DNA of 28,585 nucleotides from a virus: the IMG/VR virus record IMGVR_UViG_3300046004_000768, positions 1-28,585 of that record. One strand, given 5' to 3'. Position numbers and translations under genes: made by a program. The notes beneath the pieces are model-generated. The model was not told the origin of the DNA and did no database searches. It worked only from the letters and a program-made list of their open reading frames with translations. Shown one piece after another: positions 2,989 to 22,465 of this stretch (position 1 is its first letter; each line of letters starts with the position of its first letter).

Positions 2989-3300
2989 ATGAAAAAGGTA
3001 TTATTATTATCAGTTATTGCTTTAGCATCTTGTGGAAAATTCAAATTCGAAAACAAGATACAAGGAACATGGAAAATGTCAGAAGCACGTTTACAAGGTG
3101 AATCATCTTGGGTTGATTTTCCAACATCACAAGAATCAGTTATTATTACAGAATCACATATTTCAAATCCTTGGAATACTACATACTCAGTAAGTGGCAA
3201 AACAATTATCATGAATAACCAAACAATCAAAGTTGAAGTTAAAAAACATGATATGTTGTGGGTGTTTGATAACACTGATTCGTTGCGTTTTACTCGTTAA
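2989..3300 (+). CDS. Small phage lipoprotein, candidate superinfection-exclusion moron
   Basis: This is the only plus-strand gene in the window, 103 residues. It has a classical lipoprotein signal: MKK, a hydrophobic core (VLLLSVIA) and a lipobox LASC with the acylated Cys at position 15. The mature part is small and probably beta-rich, with a GTWKMSEAR stretch of lipocalin-like look. It has its own promoter (2938-2965). It converges on the tail gene at 3297-3809, sharing the palindrome TTAA as both stop codons, and its start diverges from the tape measure gene. Late read-through would be antisense to it, which suggests expression early in infection or in a lysogen. Known phage lipoproteins such as T5 Llp or TP-J34 Ltp block superinfection, and Ltp acts on the tape measure protein. 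That role is inferred here from position and signal only. Confidence 0.75.
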   Translation: MKKVLLLSVIALASCGKFKFENKIQGTWKMSEARLQGESSWVDFPTSQESVIITESHISNPWNTTYSVSGKTIIMNNQTIKVEVKKHDMLWVFDNTDSLRFTR

Positions 3301-3813: not shown

Positions 3814-6075
3814 TTATCCTTTACTTAAATTACTATAAATTAAAACGGCATCTTTTCCACCGCTTGAAACTCCTGTATCTATTCCAACACCTACTGGACT
3901 GCTAGCCATTCCAACGCTAACAGGTGCAATTCTTGGTATTGTTAAATTTTGTCTATTCTTTTTCTTTGCCTTTAATACTTTAATAAGTTCGATTTGTGTA
4001 CTATCTTCTGATTCAGGTGCAAATTCATTTACTTCATTCAATCGAAATAACGCACCATTCACCATTAAGAATTTACTAAAGTCTAAATTCCTTACATCTA
4101 GTGCTTTCCAATACACATACAACTTTACAATTTGTCCTGCTCTGTTTGTCATTTCATTAACAAAATCAAAGTAGTATGTACTGTAACAATTCTTTGTAGT
4201 GATTGCAGAAGCTATATAATACAATTCGTTTGTAAGCTGAAACGATAAATCAAATGTAGGTGTATTCCAATTATTGAAATGGTGAATACAAGGATAAGTA
4301 GTTAGTACTTCTTGACCTGTTCCAACCGTATCTTTAAAAGTCCATGAACCCGTTTTGCTTCCATTACGGAAACAAATAACAGGGTCGCCTTGATTCATTT
4401 TAACCGTATTGTTTTCAATCTTAATAAAGCGAGGTGCTAAAATCCCTGTTGATACTTCATAAGGTATAATTGTAGCCCACGTTAAATCGACTTTGTAATC
4501 TCCTTTGGCATAGTAACTACCTTGCACTTGGTTTAAGTTGTTGTATTCAACTTGCCATTTGTTAAAGTATTGTTCAAAATCGTAGTGAGTTTGTTTCTTA
4601 AATTGAAATAGAATATTCTTTTTAAACTCATTTGCACTTGGTCGAATCTGAATTTCTTTATCGTTATCAACAATATCTGTAATATCTGTAAACACACTTG
4701 TTTGTTGGTAGTAATCACTTAACGGCTCAATCTTACATACGCCACTTTCTGAAGGGTCTGATATATATAAATTGAATTGACGAATACAGTTTAACATAAA
4801 GTCGCTACACTTCATAGAAGGTAAGAAACGACTTAACAAAATTGTATCACCATCCGTTGCGTTGGTATCAATGCTTACAAAGTCAATTGTTATCGGTGCT
4901 GATTCTGTTAGTGTTAAAGTCGCACTTGTATCGGTGTTATCTAAAAGCGTTAATTGTCCTGTATCAAAAGTGAAATCTATTACATCGCCTGATTGACATT
5001 CCAATTCAAAAGTAGAATCTAAAATGATTGTGCCTGTCATTGAAGTATAAACTAAATTTCCATCAGTTGCAACAGTAGCGACTACACCATTTTTATTGAT
5101 GTTTAGTTTTAGTCCTTTGTAGTTATTAATTGTGCCACTAGGTGTAGTGATTGTATAATCTAATTCTAAACCGATTGTCATTTGATAACGTCCTGAACGT
5201 TGTACTGTAATTGTACCATCATCGTGTTGATTATAGTTGTCAGTCGCTTCAGTGAACGTAGATGTTGCAGAACTGAAAGCATCAGGAATAGGCAACCAAA
5301 ATAAAAGCCTAATTCCGTTACCAAGCATTTCAGTAGCACTGTATAAAACGGTTGCATCAAACGTACCATTGTTTAATTCAATGCGTCTATTTTCAACATC
5401 AGCTGGTGAAATGGTTTTAATTTCTCCACCACCATAACCAAACAGTATATTTTTGAACTGTGAACTATCTAAAAAATCAGAATCCCACGTCAATCCAACT
5501 AATTCAAAGCACTTTAATAAGGCTTCACGTAGATAAATGTACGGTACTAAGTCAGTAGTATTCCAAATTGTAGCACCTAAACGCGGTCTTCTATCAATTA
5601 ATGGGTAATAATATCCACTTCCAGCCGTTGCAGTCCATGAATTTTTTATGTTTGTACGACTTAAAGTATGATTGTAAGCACTCCAATCTAATTCACTTAC
5701 CATAATATTCTGTAACAATAGGAAAATATCTACTGATTCTGAGAATATTTGACATTTATAGCTTGGTATTCCATCGTTTATCACTACGGAATTTAGTTTA
5801 ATAAGTCCTTTTAATACAACAACACCACGTTTTTTTAGTACAATATCAGCTTTTGCAGTAGCGTCAAAGTTTACAACACTATCATTTGATGTTAATCTGA
5901 ATGAACCTGCAAAGAAAGCATTGTTATTCATTGTTGCAGGTAGCGTAATTTCTTTTGAATAAGACTTCTTACGCTTGCTTGGCTCTTTAACATCCGCTAT
6001 TGCATAACTTACAGGTATAGGAATAGTGTTAGAAATGTCTAAACTATAACCATTTGAGATTAATTCATCTGTCAT
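3814..6075 (-). CDS. Large tail or baseplate structural protein
   Basis: 753 residues. The N-terminus (NTIPIPVSYAIADVKEPSKR, then KKSYSKEITLPAT) is of a kind found in tail-tip proteins of Bacteroidota phages and prophages, where the residues describe a deformable surface of a beta-rich distal tail protein. The middle is Thr/Ser/Asp-rich and beta-like (about 260-400). The C-terminal part has aromatic-rich stretches typical of hub proteins, and the end (about 690-753) is Gly/Ser/Val rich. The start overlaps the stop of the upstream tail gene by 4 bp (ATGA), indicating translational coupling. It probably forms part of the tail tip or baseplate hub. I cannot name an exact homologue. Confidence 0.6.
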   Translation of the reverse strand: MTDELISNGYSLDISNTIPIPVSYAIADVKEPSKRKKSYSKEITLPATMNNNAFFAGSFRLTSNDSVVNFDATAKADIVLKKRGVVVLKGLIKLNSVVINDGIPSYKCQIFSESVDIFLLLQNIMVSELDWSAYNHTLSRTNIKNSWTATAGSGYYYPLIDRRPRLGATIWNTTDLVPYIYLREALLKCFELVGLTWDSDFLDSSQFKNILFGYGGGEIKTISPADVENRRIELNNGTFDATVLYSATEMLGNGIRLLFWLPIPDAFSSATSTFTEATDNYNQHDDGTITVQRSGRYQMTIGLELDYTITTPSGTINNYKGLKLNINKNGVVATVATDGNLVYTSMTGTIILDSTFELECQSGDVIDFTFDTGQLTLLDNTDTSATLTLTESAPITIDFVSIDTNATDGDTILLSRFLPSMKCSDFMLNCIRQFNLYISDPSESGVCKIEPLSDYYQQTSVFTDITDIVDNDKEIQIRPSANEFKKNILFQFKKQTHYDFEQYFNKWQVEYNNLNQVQGSYYAKGDYKVDLTWATIIPYEVSTGILAPRFIKIENNTVKMNQGDPVICFRNGSKTGSWTFKDTVGTGQEVLTTYPCIHHFNNWNTPTFDLSFQLTNELYYIASAITTKNCYSTYYFDFVNEMTNRAGQIVKLYVYWKALDVRNLDFSKFLMVNGALFRLNEVNEFAPESEDSTQIELIKVLKAKKKNRQNLTIPRIAPVSVGMASSPVGVGIDTGVSSGGKDAVLIYSNLSKG

Positions 6076-14729: not shown

Positions 14730-15059
14730 CTATTTCTCTTTTAAAATTTCAATTCGTTTATCATATAAATCAACCTCACTTTGATATGTTGCGTATTCTA
14801 GTAACCATTCATTATGTTGCGCACGTTTCATTTTAAAATGCGCTTGATTTCGTAAGTTGGTTAAATTGTCGAATGTTTGCTGTGTTTCGACTGCTTTATT
14901 AAGTTCTTTGAGAGTTTCTAAAAAAGCGTTGTAGTTTTCCTGTGCTTCATGAATCGGCGTCATTGAATTATCCGCTTCAGAAACTAGCGTGTTGTAATTG
15001 CAACTTTCAATATAACCTAATGCCGTTCTAGTCAGTTCTTCTATTTCTTGTTTTTTCAT
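14730..15059 (-). CDS. Hypothetical coiled-coil protein
   Basis: 109 residues, almost all helical, with Glu/Lys/Gln/Asn heptads (EELTRTALGYIE, ETLKELNKAVETQQTFDNL, EVDLYDKRIEILKEK). It starts directly after promoter/leader copy A (15053-15110) and shares its upstream sequence with the gene at 15631. Function unknown. Confidence 0.5.
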   Translation of the reverse strand: MKKQEIEELTRTALGYIESCNYNTLVSEADNSMTPIHEAQENYNAFLETLKELNKAVETQQTFDNLTNLRNQAHFKMKRAQHNEWLLEYATYQSEVDLYDKRIEILKEK

Positions 15060-20111: not shown

Positions 20112-20391
20112 TGTTCACCCTTTGTTTTAACAATTCGTTTTCACCTCTCAACGCGTGAATAATTCCCTCCATTTCATACATTTTATTGTGACAAAATATT
20201 AAGTTATTCAATGTTCGTTCGGTGCTTTTAATTTTTTCCGTTTGCATATCCGTTTCTTGTAGTTTCTTTAGCGTTGTTTCAGTTCTTTGAATAAGTCTAG
20301 CTAGATACAATTGACATTTACGGTATTCTACATTTTTAATATGGTCGGGGTCTAACCCAATCCGTATCATCATTTCTTTAATTGATTCCAT
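20098..20391 (-). CDS. Hypothetical coiled-coil protein
   Basis: 97 residues, mostly helical with heptads (YLARLIQRTETTLKKLQETD, MYEMEGIIHALRGENELLKQ). It joins the SF3 helicase gene by a TAATG (1-bp overlap) and the SF2 helicase by 14 bp. A link between the two helicases or a loader is possible by position, without direct evidence. Confidence 0.55.
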   Translation of the reverse strand: MESIKEMMIRIGLDPDHIKNVEYRKCQLYLARLIQRTETTLKKLQETDMQTEKIKSTERTLNNLIFCHNKMYEMEGIIHALRGENELLKQRVNNGTT

Positions 20392-21851
20392 TAGAATGGT
20401 AAATTATCTTCGTTTGTAAATCCGTTTTGTTTAATCATGAACTTTTTAACTCCATTTGATGTATTAGAATCGTATTCAAGGCCGTGAAATTTGCAGTATT
20501 TTTTGATATCAATAGTTACTGCATTTTTCGTTTTAGCGTTCCATCGTTTTGGTATCATTGTTAAATAGTTTTCGTAGAAATCATTTGACGTTATCCAATT
20601 GTTTTTAACAACCGCATCAATACATTCGTATAGTTCTTTACTGATTTCTACTTGAAGCTTCTTAAACGGTAAAGAAATGCTATTATAACTCATTAGCCCA
20701 TTGTTTAAATACTTCTTTAAACATTCAATCATATAACAGTCAAACCTTGCCCATTCTTTTGCATCCCAAGAATCGAATAATTTGTGGCCAAAGAAATCAA
20801 TAGGCGTATAATCTGAGTTAAAAAATGTACTTAATTCTACTTCAAATTTTCTTGCATCATGTGAGCCACCCTTACCCTTGATTGTGTAATTCGTTGTGAT
20901 TAATATTTTCGGGCTATCTTCAATAGGTAGTTTAATAGTGTCCTTGCCTTTGTAAGTAATTTCAATACCTTCAGTAATTACAGAAAACAATTGTTCGAAA
21001 TCAAAATTCTTTCTTACATCATCCCATACTAAAACTTGACAATCTGTTTTTACACTTTGATAAGGGAACGGAGCGTCAAATTTAAATGACTTACCGTTTA
21101 ACGATTGAACTTTCTTTAAGTGTTTAAGGCCATTCCAAAATAAACCTTTTCCGCTTCGTCCGTTTGGATCGTCTGAAATCAATTCATCATTTAAAATTAT
21201 AGCCTTATTATCACCGCCAACATTGTAACTATGAAGTAAGTAACCAATAACCGTTTGGAACGTATTGTATCTTGCTACTGCGTTTTTATACTTTTCTGTT
21301 TCTTCACTTGTTGGGTTGGTCGTTAAATCAAAACCGCCTGAAATCTTCCAAATGAATGTACGGTATTCGCTTTCGTGGTGGTCTGCATCAATGTATTCAC
21401 GTTTTATTACTTGGTCTTCCCAAATATGTAAACCGTAATGTTTATAAGGTTTTAGTTCGGCCTTGTTTTTAGATACCTCAACAACTCCGTTTTGATAGAA
21501 TAAAAAGGCCTTATCTTTCGTATCACGCAAAACTGTAATTTCATCACTCTTAATCATTGACAAATATTGTCTTTGAAATATCGAAGCACGTCCAGTCATT
21601 AAATTGTAAACTCTTTTGCCTAGATTGTTATTCAAAATGTAATCTAAAACAAAATCCTTTACGTCTAATTCATCTCGAATCTTTAAGAATATTCCATCCT
21701 TATGAATAATGTTAAATGAACTATTCGGGTTTGGTTTGTTCTTAAAGAAATTGTTCGCTTCTAAAAACTCTTTGAACTCGTAATTGTCAAGTGATACTTT
21801 ACCGTTATCACCTTCAGTCCAAAATGGAAATGTATTGTTATCGTTCATCAA
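20391..21851 (-). CDS. SF3-type replicative helicase (D5-like)
   Basis: 486 residues. SF3 ATPase: Walker A NGRSGKG (230-236), Walker B VLVWDDV (273-279), motif C KILITTNY (315-322), and an Arg-finger-like HDARKFEVEL (331-340). The N-terminal 200 residues lack a recognisable primase Cys/Asp set, so I call only the helicase. It unwinds the origin and fork during phage replication. The upstream AT-rich region 22172-22465 with repeated motifs is the likely origin. Coupled to the leader gene at 21848 by a 4-bp ATGA. Confidence 0.85.
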   Translation of the reverse strand: MMNDNNTFPFWTEGDNGKVSLDNYEFKEFLEANNFFKNKPNPNSSFNIIHKDGIFLKIRDELDVKDFVLDYILNNNLGKRVYNLMTGRASIFQRQYLSMIKSDEITVLRDTKDKAFLFYQNGVVEVSKNKAELKPYKHYGLHIWEDQVIKREYIDADHHESEYRTFIWKISGGFDLTTNPTSEETEKYKNAVARYNTFQTVIGYLLHSYNVGGDNKAIILNDELISDDPNGRSGKGLFWNGLKHLKKVQSLNGKSFKFDAPFPYQSVKTDCQVLVWDDVRKNFDFEQLFSVITEGIEITYKGKDTIKLPIEDSPKILITTNYTIKGKGGSHDARKFEVELSTFFNSDYTPIDFFGHKLFDSWDAKEWARFDCYMIECLKKYLNNGLMSYNSISLPFKKLQVEISKELYECIDAVVKNNWITSNDFYENYLTMIPKRWNAKTKNAVTIDIKKYCKFHGLEYDSNTSNGVKKFMIKQNGFTNEDNLPF

Positions 21852-22030
21852 TGTAGAATTATAAATGTTTTACCATCTGATGGATATATTGCATACATCC
21901 TAATAGGCTTACTTAAATACTTTCTGATTGTCTTGTATGGTATAACTGAGTTAAACCAAATTGAGTCCATTTCACGCCAAATATAAACATTGGGTAAATG
22001 GCCTTTTAATGTCTCTAAAGTTTCATCCAT
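21848..22030 (-). CDS. Small hypothetical protein led by the structured leader
   Basis: 60 residues (TLETLKGHLPNVYIWREMD, IRMYAIYPSDGKTFIIL). It is the first gene after the candidate promoter at 22144-22171 and the complex leader (22033-22138), and is coupled by ATGA to the helicase. The start codon 22030 is 2 bp after the leader's third complementary segment. Function unknown. Confidence 0.6.
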   Translation of the reverse strand: MDETLETLKGHLPNVYIWREMDSIWFNSVIPYKTIRKYLSKPIRMYAIYPSDGKTFIILH

Positions 22031-22032
22031 GC

Positions 22033-22138
22033 CGTGCTAAAAATATAAGGGGGTTTGCCGAGTATTAGCACGACCAAATAGAATCGGCAATTAAACCCCC
22101 TGTATTAAAAAATGTCTTGTTTTAAATCGTGCTAATAC
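22033..22138 (-). promoter_or_regulatory. Leader with interleaved complementary segments (possible switch RNA)
   Basis: On the RNA (minus strand), in order: segment 1 GTATTAGCACGA (22138-22127); segment 2 GGGGGTTT, bulge AATT, GCCGA (22100-22084); segment 3 TCGTGCTAATAC (22073-22062), exact 12-base complement of segment 1; segment 4 TCGGCAAACCCCC (22061-22049), complement of segment 2 (8 bp + 5 bp around the bulge); segment 5 TTAGCACG (22040-22033), 8-base complement of segment 3, 2 nt before the ATG. Pairing 2-4 is followed by TTATATTTTT, resembling a terminator. Segments 1-3 and 2-4 are interleaved, so they form a pseudoknot or exclude each other. Confidence 0.6.
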
Positions 22139-22143
22139 GGTTG

Positions 22144-22171
22144 TAAATATAATAATAATTTCAATATACAA
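22144..22171 (-). promoter_or_regulatory. Candidate promoter for the replication operon
   Basis: TTG at 22171-22169, spacer 17, TATATTTA at 22151-22144 (one mismatch to TAnnTTTG). Predicted transcription start lies around 22138, exactly where the first complementary leader segment begins. It lies 295 bp after the preceding terminator. Confidence 0.5.
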
Positions 22172-22465
22172 TGCAAAAAGGAAAAAGTTTTTACTAAAAT
22201 AAAAAGTTTTACCTGACTTTCTCCTGAACTTTTTCTGAGTGTTTACGGGTTACTTACTCGTTTTAGTAAAAAAGTAAAAAGTTTTTTGAGATTTTTTTAT
22301 TTTTCTACTTTTGGCCTTTTTTATATATAGAATAGGTTGAATATTTTTTCTTTTTTTTCTCCTAATCTTCTGAAACGCTTGGTGTCACTCAGAAAAAGAT
22401 AGTAAAAACACAGGTAAAACACAGTAAAAAGTTGTAAAATAGCCTAAAAAGTTTCTCCTGAATAC
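22172..22465. other. Candidate replication origin, AT-rich with repeats
   Basis: 294 bp without convincing genes between a terminator and a promoter. The motif (T/G)AAAAAGTT(T/G) occurs at 22181, 22200, 22275, 22425 and 22445, with pairs 19 and 20 bp apart. CTTTTTCTGAGTG (22229-22241) and its exact reverse complement CACTCAGAAAAAG (22386-22398) make a 13-bp long-range inverted repeat. TTTCTCCTGAA occurs twice (22218 and 22452). AT-rich tracts lie between. The neighbouring replicative helicase and the DnaA-domain-IV-like gene favour an origin. The call is structural. Confidence 0.45.

Follow-up and report, generated by a model that had tools for sequence, protein, structure and literature searches.

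The leader of a replication operon in a virus contig of 28,585 bases (the window, by which we mean this whole stretch of DNA) carries a compact element of five complementary segments, located at 22138-22033 on the minus strand. The structure, the conservation and the position of this element are shown here, and the same arrangement was seen in a total of 82 distinct elements, which come from varied phage contigs and from cultivated Flavobacterium phages. With moderate confidence, we read the element as an undescribed self-limiting leader RNA, in which the loop that carries segment 3 damps the expression of the replication genes, probably also in trans, much like a compact form of the P4 CI and P1 C4 RNAs. 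Both the regulation and the action in trans are what we infer from the data below.

Anatomy of the leader in the window

The five segments lie at the positions given in the original prediction; they belong to the minus strand and to the replication operon's leader, and the three pairings that had been listed are confirmed. Segment 1 (GTATTAGCACGA, 22127-22138, minus strand, as for all features of the leader and operon given here; seqA-like) pairs over 12 of 12 bp with segment 3 (TCGTGCTAATAC, 22062-22073; seqB-like) and supplies the 5' strand of the resulting helix P1. Segment 2 (AGGGGGTTT, 22093-22101) and segment 4 (AAACCCCCT, 22048-22056) form, by complementarity and in the predicted fold, the 5' and 3' strands of P2, with 9 of 9 bp paired and a further GCCG/CGGC pairing across a bulge that brings the helix to 13 bp. 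This inner part is, in the window, a hairpin of its own, P3, which is folded from TGCCGA (22084-22089) and TCGGCA (22056-22061), has segment 3 in its loop, and covaries in relatives. Segment 3 has a second partner in segment 5 (TTAGCACG, 22033-22040; seqC-like), a partial copy of segment 1 that pairs with 22065-22072 over 8 of 8 bp and stops 2 nt short of the ATG (22030). RNA folding added a small hairpin to this earlier picture, P0, in which 22138-22132 pair with 22108-22102, segment 1 thus being the 5' strand of P0 as well as of P1. The A/U-rich linker AAGACATTTTTT (22107-22118) is the counterpart of the family's AAAGAAATTATT. The U-rich stretch 3' of segment 4 was likewise confirmed (UUAUAUUUUU, 22048-22039); it follows P2 in the manner of a terminator, and in the window it is interrupted and weaker than in most relatives.

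The interleaved order of the segments is real, but the 1-3 and 2-4 pairings are not exclusive and can coexist as a pseudoknot or a kissing-hairpin complex; the only competing pairings in the window are 1-3 and 3-5. The segment set was the best interleaved pair on both strands of the 28.6 kb (score 53, with the next at 44), and when phage DNA was dinucleotide-shuffled, a stricter scan gave a single match in 268 kb. Folding z values were -3.0 for the 106-nt leader and -3.5 for the P2/P3 hairpin alone, while a longer stretch that included the flanks folded unremarkably (z = -1.4).

Upstream of the element, a -7-like promoter box of the Bacteroidota type (TATATTTA, 22144-22151) ends 5 nt before segment 1, although the nearest candidate -33 TTG (22169-22171) is poorly spaced. 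In 36 of 41 SF3-linked elements, a TAnnTTTG/A box precedes segment 1 by 5-18 nt, compared to a background of ~11% per search interval, and this placement fits the transcription start that had been predicted, from sequence, at segment 1. Further upstream of the promoter (22175-22461) lies an A/T-rich stretch that contains short AAAAAGTTTT-type repeats. Such a repeat-bearing stretch is also found upstream in relatives, where the repeats differ from phage to phage; they are possibly iterons of an origin.

The operon starts with a gene for a 60-aa protein without a family match (21848-22030), followed by a replication-type gene for a 486-aa protein (20391-21851). When the translation was inspected by eye, Walker and sensor motifs (a Walker A GRSGKG, a Walker B VLVWDDV, and a motif ITTNY) suggested that the latter is a putative SF3 helicase, as the original prediction had named the operon. 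This assignment was not confirmed by the other approaches: the protein matched nothing in Pfam or among the sequences of the PDB, and its structure model was unreliable in the ATPase region (pLDDT < 50). No relatives of the SF3-like gene were found in bacterial genomes.

Recurrence and covariation in related phages

A search with the 486-aa protein yielded 55 contigs, and the set was extended through an alignment of 20 members. In most relatives, the operon opens with this arrangement, in helix sequences that are quite different; four close relatives of the replication gene (L004, L005, L006, and L021; 82-83% identity) have no recognisable element before it. The shared order is a Bacteroidota -7 box, P0 with segment 1, the linker AAAGAAATTATT, P2/P3 with segment 3 in the loop, a U-tract, and the ATG. 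The linker is the best-conserved primary sequence of the family and its best-conserved single-stranded stretch, P0 equivalents include GAAG/CTTC, GGAT/ATCC, GTTC/GAAC, GCTT/AAGC, and AATG/CATT, a U-tract follows the P2 hairpin in most elements, and the first ATG usually comes 11-26 nt downstream of P2. Segment 1 itself takes 66 distinct sequences among the 82 elements.

The helices change in a compensated way. In a MAFFT alignment of 19 sequences, made from sequence only and without any use of structure, 90.4% of the P1, P2, and P3 cells were paired, compared to 74.5% after shuffling, and 17 of 24 pairs showed changes on both sides. The covariation score was 0.450 against 0.183 ± 0.018 for shuffled alignments, a value reached in 0 of 500 shuffles, and partners that were slid along the alignment scored at most 0.144. 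The original prediction had looked to covariance in related phages, and compensatory changes are present there, strongly so for P1, P2, and P3. In one relative (L003), an A-to-G change within segment 1 preserves the pairing as G-U.

The element scanner was tuned to complementarity and its counts are accordingly biased; two checks are less so. The first was a covariance model of P2 and P3 only, which gave 28 matches in 494 kb and more in new loci; most matches outside the building set also had P1, which is itself absent from the model. Second, because some of the elements had been searched for by way of P1, we ran a structure-blind pattern scan of viral contigs that required only TATATTTG, a gap, and the linker. 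Here, 43 of 103 matches had a P1+P2 score of at least 36, where shuffles would give 2.9, and 30 of 103 scored at least 44, where 0.2 were expected. Among the 40 accepted elements, segment 1 had 35 different sequences and the P2 strand 36, with G-U accounting for only 9 of 312 P1 pairs. Narrower pattern scans returned close kin only.

The genes behind the element vary. The SF3-like family was present at only 5 of the 40 pattern-scan loci, and the first or nearby genes were of replication type, i.e., VapE/BT4734 primase, Lin1244_N, DUF6291, ResIII helicase, or the SF3-like family. By eye, some first genes are ParB-like (LIPALTAEEFKQLE...IIDGHNRYEIA; L013 1277, L095, L103 819, and L010 1431), which may hint at plasmid-like maintenance. 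Another frequent first gene, again by eye, encodes a small protein that resembles NUMOD4/HNH homing endonucleases (WKxIxNYEGLYEVS), and it lies between the leader and the replication gene in L018, L023, L026, L027, L038, L106, L130, and L213. In four further cases (L022, L070, L191, and G025 at 15008, minus strand), the first gene encodes a lipoprotein-like product of 55-74 aa (MKK...LSSC/MLSC) that could be a surface or exclusion protein. Whole contigs usually carry one element. A few carry two or three, which stand before different operons of one phage with a different pairing sequence each time (L054 at 3001-3098, 4897-4996, and 8437, plus strand; L010 at 1431 and 6728; L093 at 562 and 1833; L103 at 819 and 2583; L020 at 956 and 3824).

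Cultivated phages carry the element as well. In the Flavobacterium phage mumin6-4, it precedes gp036 and the genes for a helicase and a VapE-type primase, and the element region is found in 46 isolate records at 84-100% identity. P1 reads GTGGAACG/CGTTCCAC in mumin6-4, GTGAGACG/CGTCTCAC in filifjonk9-1, and GTGAGAAG/CTTCTCAC in morran9-1, and all changes among the three are compensated; segment 5 was not seen in these phages. Searches by blastn with the locus of the window and with 13 elements found no close DNA relatives among cultivated phages, and Cellulophaga phages phi46:1 and phi38:2 and Nonlabens phage P12024S gave no convincing element. The Polaribacter phage Leef_1 (L080 16487, plus strand) may have a divergent element ahead of a gene for a 54-aa product, where no clear promoter box was seen.

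Segment 5, which the original prediction had placed just before the start codon, is real in the window but not universal. We searched for a partner of segment 3 directly before the first gene in the 82 distinct elements and used loops and leaders from different elements as a mismatched control. A score of at least 17 was reached in 19 of 82 elements (23%) versus 2.2% of the control, and a score of at least 20 in 9 of 82 (11%) versus 0.15%. The end of the segment nearly always falls at -1 to +3 nt relative to the ATG, as seen for TTAGCACG in the window and for AGTGCAG (L106), ACGTCAA (L014), CCTACCA (L171), ACGGTCAA (L153), CATCCAC (L142), and TTACAACCA (L083). Since these partners occur far above the mismatched control and are linked to the ATG, segments 1, 3, and 5 change together. 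About three quarters of the elements, for example those of the GGTAAGCC type, have no clear segment 5.

Mode of action and rival readings

In the mechanism that we propose, transcription would start at or close to segment 1. P0 would present segment 1 and the P2/P3 loop would present segment 3, and the two could pair within one RNA, as P1, in a kissing complex or a pseudoknot. The U-tract after P2 would end some transcripts and release a leader RNA of ~100 nt, and a cut in the A/U linker, where RNase E-type processing is possible, would set the P2/P3 hairpin free, giving a small RNA in which segment 3 is accessible. This loop could then bind segment 1 in other transcripts and also, in those leaders that have it, segment 5 across the start codon, such that further expression of the replication genes would fall as the leader RNA builds up. 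The device may serve the control of timing or dosage in lytic infection, and possibly interference between like phages. Findings that count against such a leader RNA are that most elements have no clear segment 5, that the U-tract of the window is interrupted, that an integrase is missing from most carriers, and that the C4 model of Rfam does not match. Against action in trans, a purely cis-acting structure would give P1 and P2 covariation equally well.

Such a cis-acting device is the main rival to the self-limiting leader RNA. It would be a leader switch or attenuator that involves no RNA acting in trans, where P1, forming during transcription, selects between the P2/U-tract terminator and the block by the 3-5 pairing, a choice that a ligand, translation, or the speed of transcription might govern. 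The covariation of all three helices, the U-tract after P2, the many elements without segment 5, and the occurrence of several phages that have two or three elements with different segments 1 would all suit this reading, which we nevertheless consider unlikely. The pairings of P1 and P2 do not exclude each other, and no classical antiterminator can therefore be drawn; besides the linker, there are no invariant bases that resemble a ligand core; and a segment 5 that copies segment 1 is easier to understand as a further target of a single antisense loop.

The helices might instead merely shape a platform for a protein, i.e., an autogenous repressor, an antiterminator, or a put-like RNA for processive antitermination. 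One architecture with a conserved single-stranded linker before many different first genes is what an operon-level device of this kind would show. A protein site would, however, hardly tolerate helix sequences that are exchanged as freely as observed (66 distinct segments 1 among 82), nor would it lead one to expect that segments 1, 3, and 5 change together, which makes this reading improbable.

A role as DNA, in a replication origin or a single-stranded DNA structure, was what the original prediction had set against an RNA. The element does adjoin the repeat-bearing A/T-rich stretch beside replication genes, but the promoter box just upstream, the one-sided U-tract on the same strand, the G-U pairs, the orientation with the operon, and the tie of segment 5 to the start codon all disfavour a role in DNA only, and we regard it as very improbable. 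Chance complementarity in an A/T-rich leader, with which the unremarkable folding of the flanked leader would agree, is contradicted by the covariation, the structure-blind scan, and the shuffled controls, and its probability is negligible.

Known RNA systems and biological meaning

The original prediction knew of no such RNA at this position, and our searches agree with this. At the Rfam gathering level, neither the window nor ten relatives matched any family, which includes every riboswitch class in Rfam, and permissive thresholds gave nothing credible, with C4 absent in the window, L042, and L023. As a positive control, phage P4 matched the C4 model at 74.9 bits. A literature search for such an RNA in Bacteroidota phages found none, which is not proof of absence. 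Membership in the C4 antisense RNA family (RF01695) was rejected, as no covariance-model match was obtained, and a self-cleaving ribozyme was set aside since no known fold matched. We also rejected a type III toxin-antitoxin RNA, which would have pseudoknot repeats in tandem ahead of a ToxN-like toxin gene, given a single element per operon and a first gene in the window without a family match. In plasmid copy control (ColE1 RNAI/RNAII, pT181, and the IncB type), loop pairing between RNAs governs replication functions, but there the antisense RNA is counter-transcribed, whereas the partners here are on the same transcript. An antisense promoter (TAnnTTTG) was seen in 3 elements and in 2 control regions, i.e., without excess, and a plasmid-type counter-transcribed RNA was rejected on these counts.

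The closest likeness is to satellite phage P4 and the leader of its PLE operon, where the CI RNA has seqA as its upstream and seqC as its downstream pairing partner and stops transcription of the replication genes (PMC4825925). The P4 order of seqA, CI/seqB, and seqC corresponds to segments 1, 3, and 5, both systems sit in the leader of a replication operon, and in both the antisense loop is encoded in the leader of its own operon and the upstream target lies in a hairpin loop. In the P4 sequence, seqA reads CGGG[CGTGAGAA]CCCG, the loop region of the CI hairpin TATTCTCACC, and seqC GAGCGTGAGAACTC; in the P4 leader, the isrK model matches seqA and the C4 model matches CI. The octamer CGTGAGAA of P4 seqA and seqC (L082 1421-1693, minus strand) also occurs in the P0 loop of L023 4551 and L054 4906, which may be coincidence among 66 distinct sequences. 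Unlike in P4, where seqA and CI are > 100 nt apart, the element here is far more compact, its target 5 touches the start codon, a U-tract follows the stem, and the C4 model does not match. It is also found in Bacteroidota phages, mostly without an integrase and some of them lytic only, and with dozens of pairing sequences. The P1/P7 C4 RNA (RF01695, target motif c4-a1b1) pairs around a ribosome binding site (PMC12197685), and its loop, like segment 3, is complementary to the start region of the regulated gene, a feature that here depends on segment 5, which the window and roughly a quarter of the elements have. C4 regulates an antirepressor gene, in contrast to the replication operon here, and C4 and c4-a1b1 have been reported from Proteobacteria and phages (PMC2864571). 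IsrK (RF01394) of the Gifsy-1 prophage is a structural homologue of P4 seqA (PMC4825925), whose hairpin corresponds to P0 here; unlike the present element, which has no RF01394 match, IsrK also acts as an mRNA. As far as its anatomy tells, the element would thus work like P4 CI and C4, yet it is not a member of RF01695.

The carriers differ from a temperate element such as P4. An integrase was found in 0 of 17 and 1 of 39 carrier contigs, many of which are incomplete, no lysogeny genes were found in the mumin phages by their authors, and the Muminvirus isolates have been described as lytic only (PMC7077304). Because nearly all contigs are without an integrase and the isolates are lytic only, prophage immunity is not the general purpose, and these data argue for a control of timing, dosage, or interference. 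Tentatively, the element could even constitute a protein-free RNA incompatibility system of largely lytic Bacteroidota phages, in which each phage would carry a self-complementary loop pair with a specificity of its own, and the small RNA of the first phage in a cell would shut the replication operon of latecomers that share its specificity while sparing all others.

P4/C4-type RNA control is known from Proteobacteria and their phages (PMC2864571 for C4). If our reading is true, Bacteroidota phages would have their own counterpart of this control of replication operons, widespread and so far overlooked, which comes in dozens of pairing specificities (our sample has 66 different sequences of segment 1) and extends to lytic phages, hence beyond prophage immunity. 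Three of these specificities occur in cultivated phages from two Flavobacterium strains, which makes the model directly testable, and the three segments, by changing together, supply a set of naturally matched RNA loop pairs.
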